Shown here: piece by piece, positions 22,875 to 41,085 of the stretch | Layout: every line of letters begins with the position of its first letter | Numbering within the stretch: position 1 is the first letter of the stretch | Assembly (NCBI GenBank): GCA_005799265.1 | Contig: SYHD01000278.1 | Span: 1-42,703 of the forward strand | Length of the DNA stretch: 42,703 nt | From: Planctomycetia bacterium | Lineage (GTDB): Bacteria > Planctomycetota > Planctomycetia > Gemmatales > Gemmataceae | Direction of reading: 5' to 3' | Notes under the pieces: generated by a model | Told to the model about the DNA's origin: nothing | Database searches by the model: none | What the model saw: the letters and a program-made list of their open reading frames with translations, nothing else | Translations under genes and position numbers: made by a program

Positions 22875-25766
22875 ATGAGATTCGTCTTGAATTCGATCGT
22901 CGCACTCGCCTTGCGCAATCATTTGCTGATGATGGCCGTCCTCTTGCTGTGCCCGATGCCCGCCCTGGCGCAAGCCGGCGTTCCTGTCGCCGTTGAACCG
23001 GTGTCCTTCAAGCATGCTGGGGTCATCGATGCTTGGTCGGCGTATGCCGAGAAACTCACCTTCGGGAAAGGCCAAACGCTGGCGCTTCTTGATGACGGCT
23101 GCAAGTTGTCCATGCCCGAATGGTCGCAGTCGGACGGCGCCTCGCCAAAGGTTCTCGTCTCTTACAACAGCGTCGATGGCAACGACGATCCGAAGCACGT
23201 GGGCCGCGGCTATCATGGCTCGACTATCGGCATTCCATCCTCGCTCAACTACAAGGGCAAGCGCGGCGTCGCCTTCAACAACCAACTCGCCGTCGTGCGC
23301 GCCCTGGAATGCTGCCATTGCAACGTGAAGGACAGCAAGACGCTGGCCGCCGGATTGCAATGGGTGATCGACCATCACGCGAAGTACCGCATCACGGCCG
23401 TCAATCTGGCCCCCGTGGACGACCTGGAGCACGCCGCACCGGTCCCGACCGAGATCGATGCCAAACTGAAACGGCTGCGCGAGCTTGGCATCTGGGTCAG
23501 CGCTCCCGCCGGCAATCACAACTTCACCAAGGGCATCTCCTGGCCCGCCTGCCAGCCCCATTGTTTCGCGATCGGCGCCGTCAGACCTGGCAAGGATGAA
23601 GTTTATCTCGATCGTAGTGCGAAGATCGATCTCGTCGTTCCCGCCGCGGCAACGTCATCCTCCAACGCGATTCTCTGCGGCTCGGTCCTGCTTTTGCGTG
23701 AGGCGATCGACAAATCGAAATACGACTGGAAGAAGGACGGCCCAACGCTTCCCGATGCGATGATGGCGATTTTTCAGCGAACCGGCAGCGCGGTGCTCGA
23801 TCCGGGGACCAAGCTGACGTTTCGCCGGCTCGACCTGAAGGCAGCTCTGGATGAGGTGTTCCAGACCGCCGCCCAATCGGCTGTGCCGGAGTTGATGAAG
23901 CGCGAAGTCTCGCCGGAGGGCCAAGCATATCTGCAAAAACTGCTCAAGCGAATCCCCTTCGGCACCAACGAATTCAATCTGACGGCGTTGCGTGCCGGCA
24001 TGGGATCGCGCCGCGATCCTACAATCAAGGACGTGAAGCTCATCAAGGTGAAGATCGGCGAAATTCCTGGCGAATGGGTTCTGGCGCCCGGCGCCGATTC
24101 CGATGTGCGGCTGCTCTATCTACACGGCGGCGGCTTTGTTTCCGGATCGGGCGCCTACTATCTCAGGCAGGCGGCCCAAATCTCGGCGGCCGCGCAGTGC
24201 GCGGTCCTCCTCCCCGACTATCGGCTCGCCCCCGAACACCCATTCCCCGCTGGGCTTGACGATTGTGTGCTCGCCCACAAATGGATGATTGGCAACGGAC
24301 CAGAAGGCCCCAAAGCAGCGAAGGCCACGTTCCTCGCCGGCGATTCGGCCGGCGGCAACTTGACCCTGGCGACCCTGCTGGCGCTGCGCGACCGCAAGAT
24401 GACGATGCCCGCGGGAGGGATCCCCATTTCGCCATGCACCGATTTCACGCTGGCGAGCGATTCGCTCAAGACGGTCCACGATCCGATCATCAGCGCGAAG
24501 ACCATGCCCGTGTTCCGCGACCATTATCTGGGCAAGACCGATCCGCGCCATCCGCTGGCCTCCCCAGTCTTCGGCGACTACCGCGGTCTGCCCCCGCTGC
24601 TGATTCAAGCCGGCGAACACGAGATGCTCCGCGACGACAGCATCCGCGTCGCCAAAAAGGCTCGTGCCGACGGCATCGACGTGAAGCTCGAGGTTTGGCC
24701 CAGCATGTTCCACGTGTTCCAATCACACGATATTCCTGAGGCACGCGCGGCGATCGATCATATTGGCGAGTTCGTGCGCTCGTCCATGCCCCGACAGCAT
24801 GCGGAGGCTGCGCCGGTCGTCGTCGCGGCCTCGCCGAAGGCGGGCGGGCACATTCATCCTTCGATTTGCCGGGCGAAAGACGGCACGCTCATCGTCGTCT
24901 ACAAGGGGCCACAGGTGCTGATGCGGGCACGCTCGACCGATGGCGGCAAGACATGGGAAGCGCCCGAGGCAATTGCCACGTCCGCCAAGCGGCCCGACGT
25001 TATTCGCGAAGTGAAGGTATTCGAAGTCTACCCCGGCACTGCCGACACGCTCCCGGATGGCCGGATTGTCGTCACCTGGAATTACATCGCCGACGACAAG
25101 GCCAAAGATCGTTATTATCAGCGTGCTTTGTTGTATACACTGAGCACCGACCACGGCCGGACGTGGAGCGAACAGCAGTTGATCGGTCCCGTCGCCGGCA
25201 AACACCTGGGCGCGGTTCGCCATAACGTTCTTTCATGGAGCGAAGGCCGTTGGTTGTTGCCCCTACGTGACGGCGCCCCTCGGTTCTATGATCCGAAGTC
25301 CGGCACGTTGACCTCATTTTCGCTCCAGGAAAAGGACGGCAAACAGCACGAATTTCAGCAAATCGTGCGTACGTCCAAGGGGACACTCTTGGCAATGGGG
25401 CCAGTACTGCTGCGCTCGACGGATGAAGGGAAAAATTGGACCGCGGTCGCGGAGTTCCCAGCAAACTCGACGGCCAGGGATAATCTCGAAGGGCGCTACC
25501 TGACAACGCTGTCGGACGGCCGCGTGCTGGCGACCTGGGGAGTGGGCACCGCCAACAAGGGGCTGCGTTACAATTTCTCCGCCGACGATGGGCAAACCTG
25601 GAACCCGGACACCGTGACGTTGCTGCCCGAGACAAACATCGCGGCCCGCTACTACTCGGCACGCACCATTCAAATCGACGACCAGCACATCGGCACGGTC
25701 TACCTGAGCGGCTCGACCGTTTACTTTCTGAAAGTGAGAATGGATCGCGTGGCCAAGGCGCGCTAG
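22875..25766 (+). CDS. Exported three-domain fusion: subtilisin-like, HSL-type esterase, sialidase-like BNR propeller
   Basis: A 963-residue protein with a signal peptide (about 1-32). Residues about 45-275 look like a peptidase S8 domain: LALLDDG with D73, YHGSTIG with H114, APAGNHN with N214, and ATSSSNAILCG with S261, aligning with the Asp, His, oxyanion Asn and Ser of subtilisins. Residues about 345-640 are an alpha/beta hydrolase fold-3 (HSL) domain: HGGGF (417-421), DYRLAPEHPFPAGLDD, GDSAGG (S491) and MFHVF (H613), with Glu583 where Asp is usual. Residues about 650-955 carry four Asp-box BNR motifs: STDGGKTW (687), STDHGRTW (757), STDEGKNW (848) and SADDGQTW (902). The product probably acts outside the cytoplasm on a glycosylated, esterified substrate; that is inference. 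Confidence 0.87.
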   Translation: MRFVLNSIVALALRNHLLMMAVLLLCPMPALAQAGVPVAVEPVSFKHAGVIDAWSAYAEKLTFGKGQTLALLDDGCKLSMPEWSQSDGASPKVLVSYNSVDGNDDPKHVGRGYHGSTIGIPSSLNYKGKRGVAFNNQLAVVRALECCHCNVKDSKTLAAGLQWVIDHHAKYRITAVNLAPVDDLEHAAPVPTEIDAKLKRLRELGIWVSAPAGNHNFTKGISWPACQPHCFAIGAVRPGKDEVYLDRSAKIDLVVPAAATSSSNAILCGSVLLLREAIDKSKYDWKKDGPTLPDAMMAIFQRTGSAVLDPGTKLTFRRLDLKAALDEVFQTAAQSAVPELMKREVSPEGQAYLQKLLKRIPFGTNEFNLTALRAGMGSRRDPTIKDVKLIKVKIGEIPGEWVLAPGADSDVRLLYLHGGGFVSGSGAYYLRQAAQISAAAQCAVLLPDYRLAPEHPFPAGLDDCVLAHKWMIGNGPEGPKAAKATFLAGDSAGGNLTLATLLALRDRKMTMPAGGIPISPCTDFTLASDSLKTVHDPIISAKTMPVFRDHYLGKTDPRHPLASPVFGDYRGLPPLLIQAGEHEMLRDDSIRVAKKARADGIDVKLEVWPSMFHVFQSHDIPEARAAIDHIGEFVRSSMPRQHAEAAPVVVAASPKAGGHIHPSICRAKDGTLIVVYKGPQVLMRARSTDGGKTWEAPEAIATSAKRPDVIREVKVFEVYPGTADTLPDGRIVVTWNYIADDKAKDRYYQRALLYTLSTDHGRTWSEQQLIGPVAGKHLGAVRHNVLSWSEGRWLLPLRDGAPRFYDPKSGTLTSFSLQEKDGKQHEFQQIVRTSKGTLLAMGPVLLRSTDEGKNWTAVAEFPANSTARDNLEGRYLTTLSDGRVLATWGVGTANKGLRYNFSADDGQTWNPDTVTLLPETNIAARYYSARTIQIDDQHIGTVYLSGSTVYFLKVRMDRVAKAR

Positions 25767-25787: not shown

Positions 25788-26804
25788 CTATTTCACGTGC
25801 TTGTACAGAAAGACCTTCGTCGGCCGATTGGAAAAATACAAGGTGACGCCGTGTGCCTCGATCGAGGCGCTGGCGCCCTCCGAGATCGGCGCGTCGGGTA
25901 GTTGCCGCCATTCGTTTTTCTTCACATCCAAGGCGTGGAACTTGAACTTGTCGTCGGAGCTGACCACCAACAATTCGCCGCTGACCGGGTCGATGGCGGT
26001 CACGGTGCTGCTGATGCGGATGACGAACGGCGCCTCCTTGAGCGGCGTGACATTGCCCAGGGCGTCCATGCGGTAAAGCTGCTTGCTGCCGTTGCCGGCG
26101 CCGAAGATCACGGACTTGTCCACCGCGTTGTACTTGGCGATGTTGTGGTAGGGGCCCATCTGGAACCGTTCCTTGAGCAGCGACCAGGTGTTTTTTTCCT
26201 CGTCGAAGAAGTGAACCGCGCCGCCATAGACGCGAACGAGTCCTTTACGCTCGGGGAAATAAGCGAGGGCGGTGCCGTGGCCGGTGGCGGCGCCTTTGAT
26301 CTCGGGCAGCGTGGTCCATGCGTCCTTGGCGATGTCGTAGCGGTGGACGAGTCGCATGGCGCTCTGGTGATGGAAAAAAATGCCGCGGGTCGTGTCAATG
26401 GTGTTGTTCTGGTAGGCGTGGCCGATCGGGCCTTTGCCGGTTTTTGCATCGCCATCCCACCAGACCGGCGTGGGCATGAGCTTCCACGAATTGGTCGCGG
26501 CAGAGTAGATGATAAACTTGACCGCGGCATAATGCCCCTGGCCGACGAAAAGCACCTGCTGCGTCTTGGGGTGCCAGACGGCGGTGTCGGTGTAGCCGAG
26601 GATGTTGCCATTTTGAACGCGTAGCAACTCCGAGCTGTAGTTTTCCGTTTTCAACTCGGCCCAGGTCCCGGGCTTCATGCCGGCGGCGAGCTTGGCCAAC
26701 TCCGTTTCGGATGATGGCTTGCCGCTTGCCGGTGCCGGGCTGCTCCCACAGAGAAGGAAGGTCGGCAATAGCCACGCTTGAATGAAGACGCGCTTTGGAT
26801 TCAT
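25788..26804 (-). CDS. Exported beta-propeller (Kelch-like) protein
   Basis: A 338-residue protein with a signal peptide (about 1-25, MNPKRVFIQAW...) and a series of four-stranded repeats of the galactose-oxidase/Kelch type: GILGYTDTAVWHPKTQQVLFVG, IIYSAATNSWKLMP, HRYDIAKDAWTTLP, RVYGGAVHFFDEEKNTWSLL and FHALDVKKNEWRQLP. No copper-radical residues or catalytic motif were recognised, so it is probably a binding or structural propeller. The ATG at 26804 has AAGGTG about seven bases upstream. Its start lies five bases after the stop of the FGE-like gene, so the two are surely co-transcribed. Confidence 0.85.
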   Translation of the reverse strand: MNPKRVFIQAWLLPTFLLCGSSPAPASGKPSSETELAKLAAGMKPGTWAELKTENYSSELLRVQNGNILGYTDTAVWHPKTQQVLFVGQGHYAAVKFIIYSAATNSWKLMPTPVWWDGDAKTGKGPIGHAYQNNTIDTTRGIFFHHQSAMRLVHRYDIAKDAWTTLPEIKGAATGHGTALAYFPERKGLVRVYGGAVHFFDEEKNTWSLLKERFQMGPYHNIAKYNAVDKSVIFGAGNGSKQLYRMDALGNVTPLKEAPFVIRISSTVTAIDPVSGELLVVSSDDKFKFHALDVKKNEWRQLPDAPISEGASASIEAHGVTLYFSNRPTKVFLYKHVK

Positions 26805-26809
26805 GTAAT

Positions 26810-27640
26810 TCACCTTTGCAAGGGAACTCGGGTTAGACGGAAGCCGAGGAGGCTGCTCCGGAACCGCAGCGCGTCCCCGTAGCGACGCGCCGCCTGGCAG
26901 TCGGTGCCGAAGTTGCTCCAGCCGCCGCCCCGGTACACCCGGTCCGAGCCCTTTTTTTCCCAGAGGTCCTCGCACCATTGCCACACGTTGCCATGCATGT
27001 CGTACAGCCCTAACTTGTTCGGCGCATACGATCCCACTTTTGTCGGCCGATCGAAGTAGGGCCCCTTGCGTGCTTTTCCAAACGGCGAGTCGCCGCGGAA
27101 GTTCGCTTTTGTCGAGGACAGGTCGTTGGTCGGTTTATCGAAGTAGAAGTGATACGAACACTCCTCCTCAGAAGTGGCGCCTCCCCGGCACGCGTATTCC
27201 CATTCCGTCTCACTCGGCAAGCGGTACTGATAGCCTTTTCCATCCTCTTTCTCGTTCAGTTTCTTGATGAACTCCTGCGCGTCAATACACGACACCGTCT
27301 CCACGGGGAAGTGCTTCAGATCCTCGTCCTTGATGTCCGCGACCTTAACTTTCCCCTTGCCGTCCCGTGAGAAGAAGCTCGGGTTGTTGCCCATCACCGC
27401 TTGCCATTGCCCCTGCGTCACCGTGTGAATGGCGATTTCGAAGTCCTCCATGATCTCCGCCTTCTTCGCCGAGCCGGGCTTGCCGTTCCAGCCCATGTAG
27501 AACGTCGCCTTCGGCAGCGGTAGGAACTTCATCCCCAGCGGGCCGTCCTTCGGCGTCGGGGATTTTGCCGTTTGAGCAGACAGCGATTCAGGCCGAGCAA
27601 CGAGAAGGCACGATGCAACGAGAACCCAACGGAACGACAT
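26810..27640 (-). CDS. Formylglycine-generating-enzyme-like (SUMF1) domain protein, exported
   Basis: A 276-residue protein with a signal peptide (1-23) followed by the FGE-sulfatase fold: GMKFLPLPKATFYMGWNG, EIAIHTVTQGQWQAVMGNNPS, FPVETVSCIDAQEFIKKLN, RLPSETEWEYACRGG, NKLGLYDMHGNVWQWCED and RVYRGGGWSNFG...RRYGDALRFRSSLLGFRL. True formylglycine-generating enzymes carry two copper-binding cysteines in the RGGSW...CR region. Here only one cysteine is seen (TDCQAARR), so the protein is probably a non-catalytic or divergent SUMF1-fold member, as found in many planctomycete exported proteins. AAGGAGG seven bases before the ATG at 27640 is a strong ribosome-binding site. No sulfatase lies nearby. 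Confidence 0.88.
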   Translation of the reverse strand: MSFRWVLVASCLLVARPESLSAQTAKSPTPKDGPLGMKFLPLPKATFYMGWNGKPGSAKKAEIMEDFEIAIHTVTQGQWQAVMGNNPSFFSRDGKGKVKVADIKDEDLKHFPVETVSCIDAQEFIKKLNEKEDGKGYQYRLPSETEWEYACRGGATSEEECSYHFYFDKPTNDLSSTKANFRGDSPFGKARKGPYFDRPTKVGSYAPNKLGLYDMHGNVWQWCEDLWEKKGSDRVYRGGGWSNFGTDCQAARRYGDALRFRSSLLGFRLTRVPLQR

Positions 27641-27801
27641 GAGCAACCTCCTTCACGGACTCAATGAAAGCGGAGCTCAATTAGCACCACCGTCGGATTG
27701 TGACGAAATGCGCCATCCGAGGCAACAATAAAGTGATGGCAACGCCAAGAATCCGCTAACAGCACCTCGTTGACAACAGGTGCAACTGCTTCCTCGCTTT
27801 T

Positions 27802-27993
27802 CAGCCTGAAAGGCTGGAACAAACCAGCCCAGGGCAACGCCCTGGGAAATGAGTGGTCAGATTCGCCAAGCCCTGAAAGGGCCCAAGAAAACATGGCAAG
27901 GCATTTGTTTTGCCCTTTCAGGGCGATGATACCTTCAAGCCATTGTTGCCCCAGGGCGTTGCCCTGGGCTGGTTTGTTTGGCCCCTTCGGGGC
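27802..27993. repeat. Nested composite inverted repeat in 440-bp intergenic region
   Basis: The 27641-28080 region has no convincing gene. It holds a mirror-symmetric set of hairpins: CAGCCTGAAAGGCTG (27802-27816); a 26-bp sequence at 27821-27846, containing AGCCCAGGGCAACGCCCTGG, repeated as its exact complement at 27950-27975; GCCCTGAAAGGGC (27870-27882) and its complement GCCCTTTCAGGGC (27912-27924); and GCCCCTTCGGGGC (27981-27993). It is unrelated in sequence to the 8710-type family but built the same way. The remaining flanks are unremarkable apart from the FGE-like gene leader. Confidence 0.85.
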
Positions 27994-28080
27994 GGTAGGC
28001 CGGGCCACCTGTTACGCCCAATTGACGCCAGCATCCAAGTATCCATAATGAGAAAGAACTTCCCAAGGAGATTTACGACC

Positions 28081-29019
28081 ATGTTCCGTTCGATCTTCGT
28101 GCTGGCGTTTCTGACTTTCGCTCCGCTCCTTCAAATTGGCTTCGCGCAAGCCGACCAGAAAACGCCGAGCAAAACCAAGACGGTGCGGCTGGTTACCGTC
28201 GGCAACAGCTTTTCTCAGAACGCCACGCGTTACCTGAACGACCTGGTGAAAGCGAAAGGTCATATCCTGATCCACCGGCCGCTGGCGATCGGCGGCGCCA
28301 GCTTCGAGGTGCACTGGGACAAGGCTCAGCTTCACGAAAAGGACGCCACGGACCCGAAGGGCCTTTACGGCAAGAAAAGCCTGCGCCAGGAGCTGATGAG
28401 CGAAGCTTGGGACTATGTGACCATCCAGCAGGCGAGCTTCAAGAGTCACAACGTCGCCACGTATCGGCCTACAGCCAAGCAGCTTCATGACTACATCAAA
28501 AAGGCGGCGCCGAAGGCCGAGATTTTGGTTCATCAGACGTGGGCGTACCGCGTCGACGATCCGCGCTTCACCAAGCCGTCGAAGACTCCAGGCGAGCCAG
28601 CCACTCAGAAGGAAATGTACGATGGCCTGACGAAGGCGTATCAGACGATTGCGGGAGAATTGGGAGCCCGTCTGATTCCGGTGGGCGATGCGATGTGCCT
28701 CGCGGACACCAACGCCAAGTGGGGCTACCAGCCTGACAAGAAATTTGATTTCAAGAATGCCATGCCGCCGACATTGCCCAACCAGACGCATTCGCTGCAC
28801 GTCGGCTGGCGCTGGGGCACGGCGAAGGATGGCAAGAAGTCGTTGACGATGGACGGACATCATGCCAACGTCGCCGGCGAATACCTCGGCGCGTGCGTTT
28901 TCTTCGAAGTCCTTTTCGCGGAGACCGTCGTGGGGAACACGTTTGTTCCTCAACAGCTCGATCGTGATTACGCGCGCTTTCTGCAAGAGACGGCGCATCG
29001 GGCGGTCGCCAAGAAATGA
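28081..29019 (+). CDS. DUF4886 domain protein (SGNH-like), exported
   Basis: A 312-residue protein with a signal peptide (1-23, MFRSIFVLAF...GFAQ). Residues VRLVTVGNSFSQNATRYL (35-52; block-I-like GNSFS at 41-45), AWDYVTIQQASFKS and the terminal MDGHHANVAGEYLGACVFFEVLF match DUF4886, an SGNH-hydrolase-related family of unknown substrate; the serine and the C-terminal histidine are both present. AAGGAG lies about ten bases before the ATG at 28081. The frame is open further upstream, but only through the composite repeat. Its stop is seven bases from the stop of the convergent cytochrome-gene fragment. Confidence 0.85.
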   Translation: MFRSIFVLAFLTFAPLLQIGFAQADQKTPSKTKTVRLVTVGNSFSQNATRYLNDLVKAKGHILIHRPLAIGGASFEVHWDKAQLHEKDATDPKGLYGKKSLRQELMSEAWDYVTIQQASFKSHNVATYRPTAKQLHDYIKKAAPKAEILVHQTWAYRVDDPRFTKPSKTPGEPATQKEMYDGLTKAYQTIAGELGARLIPVGDAMCLADTNAKWGYQPDKKFDFKNAMPPTLPNQTHSLHVGWRWGTAKDGKKSLTMDGHHANVAGEYLGACVFFEVLFAETVVGNTFVPQQLDRDYARFLQETAHRAVAKK

Positions 29020-35629: not shown

Positions 35630-35737
35630 CCGGTTACCGTCACGTGAATCGTCAACAACTCAGCATGGTTTGTGTTGACCGGCGGCAAAAATGAGCTTAC
35701 CATGAAGCGCCATGAAATAGGCTCAAAGGGGGAAGCC

Positions 35738-37042
35738 ATGAGCAACCTGCGCTGGCGTGAAATTTCCAAACCGGGCCGACGGAGCTTTCTCCGCGCCGGA
35801 GTTCTGGGCGGTCTGGGTTTGACTCTGCCTGGCATGCTTAGGCAGGCGCAAGCGTCAGGGCATGCGGCGCGGGCACGCAGCGCCATTCTTGTCTGGCTGA
35901 ACGGCGGACTGACGCATCACGATACCTTCGATCCCAAGCCGGATGCCGTGGCGGAGATTCGCGGTGAAATGGGCACGATCGCAACCAGCGTGCCGGGCGT
36001 GCGCTTCGCCGACTCGATTCCGCACCTGGCCCGTGCCATGCGCCATCTGGCGGTCATTCGCTCGGTCACGCATCCGAATTCGGCTCACGATGGCGGGCAG
36101 GCCCAGATGCTGAGCGGCTACAACTTCGTGCCGGGGCATAACTATCCCAGCATCGGCGCCGTCGTCGGCCATGAGCTCGGCTCGCGCGGCGGGCTTCCTC
36201 CTTACCTCGTTGTCCCGAGCGAAAGTTCCCCTTATCTGCACGCCGGTCATTTGGGCAGTGCTCATAATCCATTCGCCGTCGGCGGCAACCCCAATGATCC
36301 GTCGTTTCAAGTGCGCGACGTCGAGGAAGCGGACGGCATTACCCACGCGCGTTCACAACGCCGGCAAGCGCTGCTCCGTCAGGTTGACGAGGACTTCCGC
36401 CGCGTCGATTCCTCCGGCGCGCTGGAGAGCGTGGACCGATTCACGGCTCAGGCCTACGACCTGATCCGCTCGCGCCAGGCCCGCGCCGCCTTCGATTTGA
36501 ACCAGGTCGATGACCGGACGCGCGATCGTTACGGCCGCACGCAGTTGGGCCAGAGTTGCCTGCTGGCGCGTCGTCTCGTGGAAGCGGGCGTGCCTTGTAT
36601 CACGGTCAGCTCGGATGACTGGGACCACCATCAAAATCTGTATCCACGTCTGCGTGCCGGCGAGATGCTGCCTGCATTCGATCGAGGTTTCGCGGCACTG
36701 GTGGAAGATCTCGCTCAGCGCGGCCTGCTGGATTCGACGCTGGTGGTTTTCCTGACAGAGTTCGGCCGGACGCCGCGCATCAACAGCATTCAGGGTCGCG
36801 ATCACTGGTCGCGAGCCTTCAGCGTGGCATTTGCGGGAGGCGGCGTGCGCGGCGGCCAGGTCATTGGCGCGTCTGATGCCGAGGGCGCCATGCCGCGCCA
36901 TCGCCCGGTCACTCCCGAGGACGTGGCCCATTCCATCTACACGCTGCTTGGCGTCGATCCGGACAAGGAGTTGCCTTCGACCTCCGGTCGCCGCATCCCG
37001 ATCGTGCGCGGCAGTCGGTTTATCGGGGAATTGACCACTTGA
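35738..37042 (+). CDS. DUF1501 domain protein with Tat signal
   Basis: A 434-residue DUF1501 family member and the first gene of a four-gene operon. Its Tat signal is KPGRRSFLRAGVLGGLGLTL (about 11-30); the core LNGGLTHHDTFDPKPDAVAEIRGE and the C-terminal TEFGRTPRINSIQGRDHWS blocks are present. The ATG at 35738 has AAAGGGGGAAG directly upstream; two earlier in-frame starts (35672 GTG, 35702 ATG) would put extra sequence before the Tat motif. It is clearly related to the copy at 363 but shows many differences, so they are paralogues rather than a recent duplication. In planctomycetes DUF1501 genes are typically paired with DUF1549/DUF1553 genes, as here. Confidence 0.93.
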   Translation: MSNLRWREISKPGRRSFLRAGVLGGLGLTLPGMLRQAQASGHAARARSAILVWLNGGLTHHDTFDPKPDAVAEIRGEMGTIATSVPGVRFADSIPHLARAMRHLAVIRSVTHPNSAHDGGQAQMLSGYNFVPGHNYPSIGAVVGHELGSRGGLPPYLVVPSESSPYLHAGHLGSAHNPFAVGGNPNDPSFQVRDVEEADGITHARSQRRQALLRQVDEDFRRVDSSGALESVDRFTAQAYDLIRSRQARAAFDLNQVDDRTRDRYGRTQLGQSCLLARRLVEAGVPCITVSSDDWDHHQNLYPRLRAGEMLPAFDRGFAALVEDLAQRGLLDSTLVVFLTEFGRTPRINSIQGRDHWSRAFSVAFAGGGVRGGQVIGASDAEGAMPRHRPVTPEDVAHSIYTLLGVDPDKELPSTSGRRIPIVRGSRFIGELTT

Positions 37043-37047
37043 CACCC

Positions 37048-37104
37048 CCGAGCCTGAACTTCACGAAGGGTCGTTCGTTGCCCCGCGCTGGCGTTCAGGC
37101 TCGG
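37048..37104. repeat. Long-loop hairpin between DUF1501 and PPC genes
   Basis: CCGAGCCTGAAC (37048-37059) pairs perfectly with GTTCAGGCTCGG (37093-37104), enclosing a 33-base loop that includes ACGAAGGGTCGTTCGT, which can form its own small hairpin. AAAAAAT follows. It starts six bases after the DUF1501 stop and could act as an RNA-stability element or attenuator, or belong to a third repeat family; only one copy is seen here. Confidence 0.75.
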
Positions 37105-37120
37105 AAAAAATGGGGGCCTT

Positions 37121-38806
37121 ATGCGTGTATGCCCATGGAGCGCCGTCGTCCTGGCGATCCTGCCATCCTTGGGGTGGACTGCGCCTCCGGAAATTCGCTC
37201 GACCGTTCCGGCGGGATTGCAGCGCGGCGTGGAAACGCAACTCACGCTCTATGGCCCGGGATTTGGTCCTGGCATGGAATTAGTGGTTCCCTTCGCGGCG
37301 GCCATCAAGGTGACGTCTGTCAGCAGCGAAGTAGCGACTTTTGCCGTCAAGCCGGCCAACCATGTGCCGGTGGGTATCTTTCCCATTCGCGTCCGGACTG
37401 CGGACGGCGTCTCGAACATGCTGTTACTGGCGGTGCACGACTTGCCGCGTGTCGTCGAAGTGGAGCCTAACGACCGACCGTACGAGGCCCAAAGAATTGC
37501 CTGGCCATGCATGATCACGGGGGCGCTGGGCGGCCGCGGTGCTCCGCATCCCAGCAAAGACGTGGACACCTATAAATTCACAGTCAAGGCAGGGCAACGA
37601 TTGACGTTCGTCAGCGAGACGCGCCGTGTTGGTCTCGCGCCGGACCTGGCTCTGCGTTTGCGCGATCCCAAGGGGCGCGAACTGGCGTTCTGCGACGATG
37701 TGCCGGGCCTCGGCGTGGAGCCTCGCCTCGATTACACCTTCAAGGAAGCGGGTGACTACACGGTTGAAGTGCATTTTAGCCACTTCAGCTACTCGGGCCG
37801 CAATCACAATTATCTGCTCAAGATTGGCGCCTTCAATTATGCTCGCAGCGTGTTTCCGCTCGGCGGCAAACGCGGCGAAAACGTGAACGTCACGGTAACG
37901 GACCGCGATGAAAAGCCGTCCACGCTCCAAACCCGCGTCACGGCCGATCCACGCGCTGAGCAATGGCTGCTTCCGTTAGACGATTTCCCCGGTTCGCTCC
38001 CCTGGCGCATGGCAGTCGGCGATTTGCCGGAAGTGATGGAGGATGCGGACCGCACAGGGCCGCAAGTGATCGAATGGCCTGCAATAGTCAATGGCCGGAT
38101 TGCGAAACCCGACGAGATGGACCGCTATCGCCTGCGCGTCAAGCCTGGGCAGCAGATTCGCATCTCGGCCGACGCCTTTTATCACGGCTCGGCTCTCGAC
38201 GGTGTGCTGCGCGTCTACGATCCCGCTGGCAAGATGTTGGCCGCGAACGACAACCGCAATGGACGTATGAACCCCGATCCCCTGGTCGATTTCATAGTCC
38301 CCGATGGCGTGAACGAAGTCAGCGTGAATCTGGAGGATGGCTTCGGTCGCGGCGGCGCGGACTATCCCTACCGTATGACGATCGAGCCGGGCGGCCCTGA
38401 TTTTGAGTTGTTCACGGGCACCGAACGGCCGCGCACAGGTTGGCCCGAGAACGATGCCGTCAATCTGCCTTTGGGAGAACCGGTCAAGCTGGCGGTGCGC
38501 GTGGTGCGGCGAGGCTACCAGGGGGCCATCCTGCTCAAAGCTCTCAATGTGCCGTCAGGCGTTACGATTCCTCCAGGGATCATCCCGGAAGGCGAGGCAA
38601 GTGCGGAGCTCACGTTCACGGCCAACGCCCAGGCGCCTGCGTCTCTCTTCGAAATCGGCCTGGTCGGTGTGGCCCAAGTGGACGGGAAGACCGTCACCCG
38701 CCAGGTGGTGCGCCACATCCACATCGCGGAGCCGTCCATGACGAACATGCGCTGGGATTGGCGATTGACGCGTTTCATTTGCGCCAAGGTGGAGGGTGTA
38801 CGATGA
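37121..38806 (+). CDS. Exported PPC-domain protein
   Basis: A 561-residue protein with a signal peptide (1-20). An IPT/TIG-like beta-sandwich (about 22-105: IRSTVPAGLQRGVETQLTLYGPGF) is followed by two bacterial pre-peptidase C-terminal-type (PPC) domains, at about 112-235 (EVEPNDRPYEAQ..., DVDTYKFTVKAGQRLTF..., YTFKEAGDYTVEVHF) and about 310-430 (NGRIAKPDEMDRYRLRVKPGQQI..., DGVLRVYDPAGKMLAANDN). No peptidase domain is present, so it is probably a surface or periplasmic binding protein. GGGGG lies just before the ATG at 37121. Its stop codon overlaps the start of the DUF1549/DUF1553 gene (ATGA, 38803-38806), tying the two together. Confidence 0.88.
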   Translation: MRVCPWSAVVLAILPSLGWTAPPEIRSTVPAGLQRGVETQLTLYGPGFGPGMELVVPFAAAIKVTSVSSEVATFAVKPANHVPVGIFPIRVRTADGVSNMLLLAVHDLPRVVEVEPNDRPYEAQRIAWPCMITGALGGRGAPHPSKDVDTYKFTVKAGQRLTFVSETRRVGLAPDLALRLRDPKGRELAFCDDVPGLGVEPRLDYTFKEAGDYTVEVHFSHFSYSGRNHNYLLKIGAFNYARSVFPLGGKRGENVNVTVTDRDEKPSTLQTRVTADPRAEQWLLPLDDFPGSLPWRMAVGDLPEVMEDADRTGPQVIEWPAIVNGRIAKPDEMDRYRLRVKPGQQIRISADAFYHGSALDGVLRVYDPAGKMLAANDNRNGRMNPDPLVDFIVPDGVNEVSVNLEDGFGRGGADYPYRMTIEPGGPDFELFTGTERPRTGWPENDAVNLPLGEPVKLAVRVVRRGYQGAILLKALNVPSGVTIPPGIIPEGEASAELTFTANAQAPASLFEIGLVGVAQVDGKTVTRQVVRHIHIAEPSMTNMRWDWRLTRFICAKVEGVR

Positions 38807-41085
38807 AGGCTTCAACGAACAATGTGGTGCGACGCTCCGCGCCGCAAATCACGACGCGGCGCGTCGTGCCACAATCAACATTGCGGGGACTCGCGGGTGT
38901 CGCGGTCGTTCTCCTGGCCGCTGGACTGATTTTCGATCAATCCGCACATGCCGATCAACCGACGCCCGCGCCGAATCAAGTGAGTTTTGTCAACGAAGTG
39001 ATGGCCGTTCTGGGTAAAGCGGGCTGCAACGCAGGCGTCTGTCATGGCAACGCTTCCGGCAAGGGTGGTCTAAAGCTCAGCTTGCGCGGCTACAATCCGC
39101 GTGCCGATCTCGAAGCCATCACGCGCGATCAGTTAGGTCGGCGCGTGAACCTCGCGACAGCTGACGCCAGCTTGTTTTTGCAAAAGCCCGCCGGGATGGT
39201 CGAGCACGGCGGCGGCCAACGCTTCGGCGTGGATTCCGATTTTTACCGGGTGATCCATCAATGGCTCCAGCAGGGCGCCAAAGGCGATTTCGACCGTGCC
39301 CCACGCCTCGAAAAGATCGACGTCTCTCCTGAACTTAGCATCTTGGCCAAACCGGGACTCAAGCAGCAACTCGTCGTCCGCGCTCATTTCGCGGGCGGCC
39401 TGATCCGCGATGTGACCGACCAGGCCATCTACGAATTGATCAACCAGGGCATTGTGGACGTTGACGGACGCGGTCTCGTGATCGCAAAGGAAGTCGGCGA
39501 AGCTCCGGTGCTGATACGTTTCCTGGGACAGAAAGCTCTGAGCCGCATCACGGTGATACAGGCTCGGCCCGACTTCGCCTGGAGCAATCCGTCGGCCCAC
39601 AACTTCATCGACACGCATGTGTTTGCCAAGCTCAAGGCCGTCCAGGTGCTGCCGTCGGAGTTGTCGAGCGATACGGAATTCTTGCGGCGCGTCAGCTTCG
39701 ACACGGTGGGTCTGCCGCCGACGCCGGCCGAGGTGCGCGCGTTTCTGGTGGACAAGCGGCCCGACAAACGCAGTCGCAAAATCGCTGAATTGCTGGAGCG
39801 CCCGGAATTCGCTGACGTGTGGGCGCTCTACTGGCTCGACCTTCTGCGGGCGGATGAAACGCCGGGGGTTTTGTATCCAAAAGGCGTCTGGGCGCTGAGC
39901 CGTTGGCTGCGCAAGTCCGTCGAGGACAATATGCCATACGATCAATTCGTGCGTCGGTTCCTGACCGCACGCGGCAGCCTGCTTGCCAACCCGCCGGCTG
40001 CTTTGTCGCATGTCTTCCGCCAGCCTAACGAGAAGGCCGAGGCCATCGCTCAAATCTTCCTGGGCACACGTCTCGAATGCGCCCAGTGCCACGATCATCC
40101 CTTCGATCGCTGGACGCAGAGCGATTACAACTCCCTGTCGACGTTCTTCTACCAAGTGGGCCGCAAGGACGGACAGGATTATTACGCCGAGGGGCAAGTC
40201 TATCTGGAGCCCGAGAAAAACAAGCAAGTCCATCTGCGTTTTCTCGACGGCAGCGCGGTCCAATGGCCTCCCGCGGATCGCCTGGCCTCCGAGAAGGGTG
40301 ACGGGGTGCGCGATCGGCGCATCGCCCTGGCCGACTGGATGCTCGGCCCCGCCAAGCAATGGACCGCCCGCGCTCTGGTCAACCGCGTCTGGGGCAAGCT
40401 GCTCGGTCGCGGCATCGTCGAGCCGGTGGACGATTTTCGCTTCAGCAATCCGCCGGTCAACGAGCCGCTCCTGGACGCGCTGGCCGACGATTTCATCGCG
40501 CATGGCTACGATTTCAAGCGTCTGGTCGGCACGATTCTCCTCTCGCGAACGTATCAGGCGAGCTCCAGGCCCAATGGGACCAACGGCACGGATCAGACGT
40601 ACTTCTCCCGCGCCATGCTGCGCCGGCTCAGCGCTGAGCAGCTCTTGGACGGGCTGTCGCAGGCCACCGGCATCGAGGAAGAATTCCGCGCCGTGCCCGC
40701 CGGTTTCCGCGCCGCGCAGGTCCCAACCAACCACACCGGTTCGTATTTCCTGAAGACTTTCGGCCGGCCGCCGCGCAAGAGCGTCTGCTCGTGCGAGCGT
40801 TCCCAGACACCGACGCTGCCGCAGACTCTGCACCTCATGAACGGTACCACCATGATGAAGCGTCTCCGCGCCGAAGGCGGCACGCTGGACCGCTTGCTCA
40901 AGGCGAAACTGGACGACAATCGTCTCATCGAGGAGTTCTATCTGCACGCCCTGAGCCGCCCGCCCCAGCCTGCCGAACTTGCCCACGCTCGCGGCTACTT
41001 GACGGAGGCCGACGATCGTGCTCAAGCCGCCGAGGACCTCTTCTGGGCCTTGCTCAATAGCCGGCGGTTCTTGTTCAACCATTGA
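38803..41085 (+). CDS. DUF1549/DUF1553 domain protein with heme-type cysteine motifs
   Basis: A 760-residue exported protein (hydrophobic segment about 28-45). It has CNAGVCHG at 75-82 near its N-terminus, a beta-sandwich (about 165-255), DUF1549 (about 265-480, including VFAKLKAVQVLPSELSSD and DTVGLPPTPAE) and DUF1553 (about 500-755, including LVNRVWGKLLGRGIVEPVDDFR and EEFYLHALSRPPQPAEL). CAQCH (426-430, in ECAQCHDHPFDRW) is a cytochrome c-type motif, suggesting heme binding. The family is abundant in planctomycetes, usually next to DUF1501, and its biochemical role is unknown. The ATG at 38803 has GGAGGG seven bases upstream and overlaps the preceding stop codon. Confidence 0.92.
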   Translation: MKASTNNVVRRSAPQITTRRVVPQSTLRGLAGVAVVLLAAGLIFDQSAHADQPTPAPNQVSFVNEVMAVLGKAGCNAGVCHGNASGKGGLKLSLRGYNPRADLEAITRDQLGRRVNLATADASLFLQKPAGMVEHGGGQRFGVDSDFYRVIHQWLQQGAKGDFDRAPRLEKIDVSPELSILAKPGLKQQLVVRAHFAGGLIRDVTDQAIYELINQGIVDVDGRGLVIAKEVGEAPVLIRFLGQKALSRITVIQARPDFAWSNPSAHNFIDTHVFAKLKAVQVLPSELSSDTEFLRRVSFDTVGLPPTPAEVRAFLVDKRPDKRSRKIAELLERPEFADVWALYWLDLLRADETPGVLYPKGVWALSRWLRKSVEDNMPYDQFVRRFLTARGSLLANPPAALSHVFRQPNEKAEAIAQIFLGTRLECAQCHDHPFDRWTQSDYNSLSTFFYQVGRKDGQDYYAEGQVYLEPEKNKQVHLRFLDGSAVQWPPADRLASEKGDGVRDRRIALADWMLGPAKQWTARALVNRVWGKLLGRGIVEPVDDFRFSNPPVNEPLLDALADDFIAHGYDFKRLVGTILLSRTYQASSRPNGTNGTDQTYFSRAMLRRLSAEQLLDGLSQATGIEEEFRAVPAGFRAAQVPTNHTGSYFLKTFGRPPRKSVCSCERSQTPTLPQTLHLMNGTTMMKRLRAEGGTLDRLLKAKLDDNRLIEEFYLHALSRPPQPAELAHARGYLTEADDRAQAAEDLFWALLNSRRFLFNH

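Follow-up and report, generated by a model that had tools for sequence, protein, structure and literature searches.

A planctomycete reading frame that joins a subtilisin-like module, an HSL-type esterase and a sialidase-fold propeller

A three-module reading frame in a Gemmataceae genome

An open reading frame at positions 22875-25766 (+ strand) of a Gemmataceae contig codes for a 963-residue protein in which a subtilisin-like (S8) module, an HSL-type esterase and a sialidase-fold propeller follow each other end to end, as seen in the translation and by Pfam. The contig was analysed over all of its 42,703 nucleotides, here called the window. We consider that the frame arose by in-frame fusion of three genes for exported proteins and that the tethered modules most likely act together on an acylated, protein-linked glycan, a reading to which we assign a probability of roughly 55%. 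The three exported hydrolase-type domains that had been claimed on one chain were all recovered, export being judged from a signal peptide read by eye, and the triple occurs in no other genome of our samples.

The ATG start codon is preceded by AGGGAGACGCGC, and a ribosome-binding-like AGGGAGA lies upstream. The signal peptide, read by eye from the sequence, comprises residues 1-32 (22875-22970, + strand) and ends in ALA-Q; the fusion protein is presumably exported. It is followed directly by the S8 module (residues ~36-332), the esterase (334-642) and the propeller (643-963). In a profile search of the translation, Peptidase_S8 (PF00082), Abhydrolase_3 (PF07859) and BNR_2 all scored above their curated cut-offs, and the Pfam and Foldseek matches of the modules are far beyond chance. 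The residues named in the original prediction (D73, H114, N214, S261, S491 and H613) are found at the positions claimed, and the four predicted BNR Asp boxes begin at residues 687, 757, 848 and 902. The source genome is a 6.47-Mb assembly of 372 contigs with 87% completeness. Composition is even across the modules, with similar GC and with GC3 values of 0.76, 0.76 and 0.745 for the S8, esterase and propeller parts, respectively.

The S8 module

The S8 module (residues 36-332; 22980-23870, + strand) contains D73, H114, N214 and S261 as well as cysteines at positions 76, 147, 149 and 268, and was delimited by Pfam, alignment, a structure model and Foldseek. Peptidase_S8 matched residues 64-257 with 27.8 bits, the gathering cut-off being 21.8. 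A profile search of the module against solved structures retrieved subtilases, with a best E value of 1.1e-5; the top row of this search was an Ig-like protein, in which no single stretch passed. The model of residues 34-333 had a mean pLDDT of 71.8 and a pTM of 0.79, with a pLDDT below 50 at protein residues 75-149, including H114. Its comparison by Foldseek placed subtilisins first (E 2.3e-9, probability 1.00, TM ~0.60), and the best 50 matches were all subtilisins or other S8 proteases, with the caveat that the top match shares the fold at an rmsd of 7.0 and 16% identity. Pfam, the structure-profile search and Foldseek thus all give an S8 fold in residues 45-275, where a subtilisin-like domain had been proposed.

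The tetrad D73, H114, N214 and S261 is invariant in all 40 aligned sequences, including that of the window, an alignment from which the copy of genome G194 (locus L251) was excluded for low coverage. In this copy (L251:481-2301), the middle of the module with the Asn and Ser positions is missing, and two of the four active-site positions are therefore absent. The reading frame of G194 stays open into a part that resembles alpha/beta hydrolases, where the Pfam hits are weak. The suggestion that the domain might be a regulatory relic is disfavoured by the invariance of the tetrad, G194 excepted, and by the finding that 24 of the 39 classified copies stand alone. To judge by its conserved residues, the S8 module is probably active.

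The module resembles the subtilisins (MEROPS S8; PF00082) in its fold and its four active-site residues. It differs from them in its score of only 27.8 bits, in the absence of the inhibitor prodomain from the Pfam hits, and in having an ECCHC stretch and invariant cysteines beside the catalytic Asp and Ser. In this S8 family, these features lie at positions corresponding to residues 76, 146-149 and 268 of the fusion protein. A distant S8 paralogue encoded in the same genome (L006, G000:C92) was considered as a second copy of the fusion and rejected, as its Pfam domains are S8 with Big_9, TIG and FG-GAP.

The esterase module

The HSL-type (GDSAG) esterase occupies residues 334-642 (23874-24800, + strand), contains S491 and H613, and was identified by Pfam, NCBIfam, alignment and a structure match. 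Abhydrolase_3 covers residues 413-616 with 190.5 bits against a cut-off of 25. The HGGG motif (H84-G87 in module numbering), the GDSAGG motif (G156-G161, with S158) and the His (H280) are invariant in 34 aligned esterases, that is, S491 and H613 in protein numbering, and so are all three candidates for the catalytic acid, E583, D587 and D588. The module thus has the HSL-type residues that had been predicted, HGGG, the GDSAGG serine S491 and H613, in conserved form, and on this basis it is probably active. Among the NCBIfam HSL subfamilies the best match, GESAG_HSLs, did not reach its cut-off (209.7 versus 430 bits), and the module is related to the named subfamilies without belonging to any of them.

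It has HGGG, GDSAGG and the catalytic His in common with the bacterial HSL (family IV, GDSAG) esterases EstD11 (PDB 7at0), Est8 (6y9k) and 3fak, and the match to EstD11 spans nearly the whole module with 237.6 bits. Unlike these enzymes, the esterase of the window is predicted to be exported, by the signal peptide read by eye, and is sandwiched between two other modules.

The propeller module

The BNR module (residues 643-963; 24801-25763, + strand) is a sialidase-fold propeller with four Asp boxes, as found by Pfam, alignment, modelling and Foldseek. BNR_2 matched residues 750-920 with 57.5 bits (cut-off 31.4). The model, with a pLDDT of 87.3 and a pTM of 0.89, has about six blades by strand count, and the Foldseek search with residues 643-963 gave a sialidase first (E 5.5e-13), the top matches being mostly sialidases. 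In the first blade, GHIHP (residues 658-662; 24846-24860) takes the place of the sialidase RIP motif, which carries the first arginine of the sialidase triad. The two His and the Pro of this GHxHP motif are present in 47 of 48 propeller rows, window included, the remaining row being gapped at this place, and GHxHP is also found in four of four distant relatives. A Tyr-Ser pair stands at what we take to be the place of the sialidase nucleophile motif; its Tyr (Y285 in module numbering) is present in 48 of 48 rows, including the window, and is replaced by Ala in the four distant relatives.

The designation as sialidase-like thus stands for the fold and the Asp boxes, and fails for the arginine motif. 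The module shares with GH33 sialidases (e.g. 1eus) the propeller fold of about six blades, the four Asp boxes and possibly the place of the Tyr-Ser pair, but its family has GHxHP where the sialidases have RIP, which makes GH33 activity doubtful. GHxHP may mark a distinct family of sugar-acting propellers.

Stand-alone counterparts and position of the joins

For each third of the protein, a same-genus genome contains a separate counterpart gene with 80-92% identity. A stand-alone S8 gene of G003 has 270 of 295 residues identical (92%) and forms a sister pair with the S8 module of the window in the tree (support 100/93). The esterase is encoded alone in the same-genus genomes G004 (84% identity) and G005 (258 of 330 residues, 78%, over a longer stretch), and the propeller in G005 (L041; 258 of 323 residues, 80%).

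Similar sequences were surveyed in 99 genomes, including that of the window, and in 61 loci from public records (planctomycete, with a few verrucomicrobial). Most matches lay within one third of the protein, often as a gene of their own, with one clear exception, L038, which matches two thirds. Within the flanks examined, none of the 61 loci contained two modules as separate neighbouring genes, and there is thus no sign of a three-gene operon. The class survey (397 genomes including the window's, E ≤ 1e-60) found the S8 module in 51 genomes, the esterase in 43 and the propeller in 32; among the matches in the 396 other genomes, none combined all three in one frame, and G233 had the esterase and the propeller in one frame. 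Likewise, no second triple was found among 21 other places in a family sweep of 95 genomes, the window's and 94 others (E 1e-80). The class, family and 99-genome samples overlap, and the counts cover a limited number of candidates scored per genome.

The limits of DNA similarity to the stand-alone genes place both joins within narrow intervals of the + strand. At the first join (23863-23889), similarity to the S8 gene of G003 stops at 23862, and similarity to the esterase genes starts at 23873 (G004), 23878 (G233) or 23889 (G003 and G005). At the second (24798-24811), similarity to the stand-alone esterase genes stops at 24797 (G003 and G005) or 24776 (G004), and from 24812 onwards the DNA resembles the BNR gene that stands alone in G005. 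The joins therefore sit between mature modules, and neither stop codons nor signal peptides are left at them. An esterase-propeller join of the same kind is present in G233 (L038/L194), with 505 of 636 columns identical and a six-residue gap at the join. A search around both joins for exact 14-base repeats occurring elsewhere in the window gave one match, near the second join.

Repeated fusion of the modules in other planctomycetes

The copies outside the window were classified as stand-alone or fused; of the places found in the class survey, this covered those for which a locus was retrieved, at most 30 per module search. Copies covering less than 75% of the module (including the S8 copy of G194) and rows identical to the window were dropped beforehand, and duplicates were counted once. 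Besides the 24 stand-alone S8 copies, 13 were fused and 2 ambiguous (n = 39). For the esterase, 17 of 36 copies were fused, or 14 of 33 without L242, L243 and L245, which had been added for their length. Among 49 propeller copies, 6 were fused and 3 ambiguous; L089 and L187 were left out of the propeller alignment. On the best trees, the single/fused label changes at least 7, 5 and 5 times for the S8 module, the esterase and the propeller, respectively, as gains or losses, and well-supported branches force 5, 2 and 4 of these changes. In the family sweep, the 21 places outside the window comprised 9 fused, 10 single and 2 ambiguous ones, the singles of G195 and G343 being judged by frame length alone and the fused copy G009:C247 through L091, a frame of equal length.

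A long frame was not retained as a sign of fusion, since a signal-peptide-like stretch lies directly before the module in L115, L123, L161, L168 and L174, which were considered ambiguous. The hydropathy threshold used for this purpose (1.9) is ad hoc, and L123 is close to it at 1.98. A HEAT-BNR frame (L014/L161) as well as L168/L246, which have no Pfam hit before the propeller, were initially taken as fusions and are now counted as ambiguous.

The partners identified by Pfam vary. The S8 module was found in PD40-S8 proteins, one of them in the one-contig genome G037, and in BNR/sortilin-S8 and S8-FG-GAP proteins. The esterase occurs in sialidase-esterase, LamG-SASA-sialidase-esterase, sialidase-esterase-GHL10 and esterase-LamG combinations, and the propeller in GDSL-propeller proteins and in fusion with an S9-type hydrolase. 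The frame L242:370-5904 encodes a LamG-SASA-sialidase-esterase protein of 1845 residues, with two esterase families and a sialidase on one chain. The planctomycete sialidase-esterase proteins (L013 = L052, L086, L090, L096, L136 and L242-L245) have the same esterase module as the window protein together with a sialidase-type propeller. In contrast to the window protein, they have a BNR_3-type propeller with YRIP, which stands before the esterase, and no S8 module. YRIP was kept in 10 of 10 sialidase-esterase frames examined (9 distinct, L013 and L052 being on one contig).

The modules were also compared for their co-occurrence in the 396 class genomes other than the window's, with expectations uncorrected for kinship. 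S8 and esterase occur together in 21 genomes (5.3 expected) and S8 and BNR in 15 (3.9 expected); the co-occurrence of esterase and BNR was not significant (6 versus 3.3 expected, p 0.095).

Origin and possible function of the fusion protein

We regard the window protein as a multidomain, presumably exported hydrolase that probably derives from gene fusion. This triple appears to be new, and the shuffling of domains in the Gemmataceae is, in general, already known. Many recently evolved proteins of this family have unique domain combinations, as reported in part of a study of the Tuwongella immobilis proteome (PMC8567305, citing Mahajan et al. 2020). The window protein is similar in having a unique combination, and differs in that the triple and its modules are absent from that part of the study. 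A literature search limited to titles and the openings of abstracts, with most subscription journals outside its range, yielded no description of an S8-esterase-propeller triple. As the relatives mostly make the modules singly or with other partners, the protein is best described as a lineage-specific product of repeated fusion and not as a new kind of enzyme.

According to the scenario that we favour, three genes, one for a protease of the S8 type, one for a GDSAG (HSL) esterase and one for a sialidase-fold propeller, would have been joined in frame, end to end. Comparison with the stand-alone genes indicates that the joins coincide with the limits of the mature modules and that the stop codons and signal peptides in between have been lost. 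The S8 module and the esterase, having kept their catalytic residues, would both be active, and the propeller would probably bind or cut sugar by a chemistry other than that of standard GH33 enzymes. Outside the cytoplasm, the tethered set could then deacylate an acylated, protein-linked glycan, hold or cut it, and strip it of protein. An attack on one substrate at the protein, ester and glycan level, as put forward in the original prediction, is a reasonable possibility, suggested by the repeated coupling of esterases to sialidase-type propellers from unrelated families, together with the co-occurrence of the modules in counts uncorrected for kinship. This pairing recurs with unrelated parts in the sialidase-esterase, LamG-SASA-sialidase-esterase, GDSL-BNR and BNR-S9 proteins.

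The main rival is a passenger fusion without functional coupling, in which chance deletions or rearrangements joined modules that act on unrelated substrates, the tether being without function. The broad range of fusion partners fits this explanation too, as do the presence of the triple in a single sampled genome and the many unique domain combinations among recently evolved Gemmataceae proteins (PMC8567305, in the part cited above). We nevertheless hold it to be rather unlikely, because esterases have repeatedly been paired with sialidase-type propellers of unrelated families and because the S8 module co-occurs with the esterase and with BNR, in counts uncorrected for kinship. The original prediction also offered a self-processing proenzyme, whose S8 module would free itself and the other modules after export. 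An intact tetrad in an N-terminal module and the short linkers at both joins are compatible with this idea, for which no positive evidence was found; the S8 copies, however, are more often stand-alone than fused (24 versus 13, with 2 ambiguous, of 39), and the fused ones are sometimes N-terminal and sometimes C-terminal, the latter in the PD40-S8 and BNR-S8 proteins, which renders the idea improbable. Finally, that contigs of separate genes were misjoined during assembly would agree with a draft of 372 contigs and with each module being a separate gene in relatives, but is very unlikely: both joins are in frame, coincide with module borders and lack the inner signal peptides, the second join is present in G233 too, composition and GC3 are even, the flanking genes match the S8 locus of G003, and the one-contig genome G037 contains a different S8 fusion.

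The fusion provides a functional hint, as it ties together three planctomycete families of unknown substrate, two of them with intact catalytic residues and the third being the GHxHP propeller, with the look of a sialidase and without its signature. More tentatively, planctomycetes may possess a stock of exported single-module proteins, the S8, HSL esterase and GHxHP propeller types among them, that are repeatedly fused at constant borders into lineage-specific one-protein degradation kits, in which the esterase-propeller pairing would be selected and the GHxHP propeller might be a sugar-acting enzyme with a new chemistry. In this view, the repeated building of such a pair out of unrelated families would indicate an advantage in deacylating and handling glycans with a single chain. 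Since the families are patchy, well conserved and repeatedly re-joined, they offer a tractable case for studying the mechanism and the causes of domain shuffling among exported planctomycete proteins.

Neighbouring genes

Downstream of the fusion, the window contains a gene for a Kelch protein with a signal-peptide-like start, read by eye (25788-26804, - strand), a gene for an FGE-sulfatase (SUMF1-like) domain protein (26810-27646, - strand) and a DUF4886 gene (27910-29019, + strand), followed by DUF1501, PPC and PSCyt2/PSD1 genes (35672-41085, + strand), all assigned by Pfam or by their relatives in other genomes. The stand-alone S8 gene of G003 adjoins a DUF4886 gene (87% identity) and is near a frame that contains both FGE and Kelch (75% and 93%); this locus therefore shares the three neighbours found 3' of the fusion in the window, arranged in another order. 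Directly behind the stand-alone propeller gene of G005 lie relatives of the DUF1501, PPC and PSCyt2/PSD1 genes of the window (89, 81 and 82% identity). The esterase gene of both G003 and G005 follows genes ~42% identical to the PSCyt2/PSD1 and DUF1501 genes of the window and a gene of 805 residues, which in the G003 scan has a PPC domain.

Relatives of DUF1501/HXXSHH/PSCyt genes were found in 28 of the 61 loci (44 ORFs in 618 kb), of which L038, L039 and L095 match by construction because some queries came from loci overlapping them. Of 40 control stretches taken from five genomes and unmatched by species or length, 8 had such relatives (13 ORFs in 520 kb). PSCyt/PSD proteins combine their domains in various ways, in some cases with carbohydrate-binding modules, as described in part of an earlier study (PMC5615132). 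They resemble the proteins studied here in this variety, and the S8, esterase and BNR modules are often encoded near such genes; unlike them, the window protein lacks both cytochrome c and PSD domains by Pfam.

The FGE and Kelch genes, separate in the window, form one frame of 586 residues in G003 (L188:12195-13955), in which the signal-peptide-like start of the Kelch part is gone. By this comparison, the FGE-Kelch frame of G003 appears to be a further fusion at this locus, again exact at the borders.
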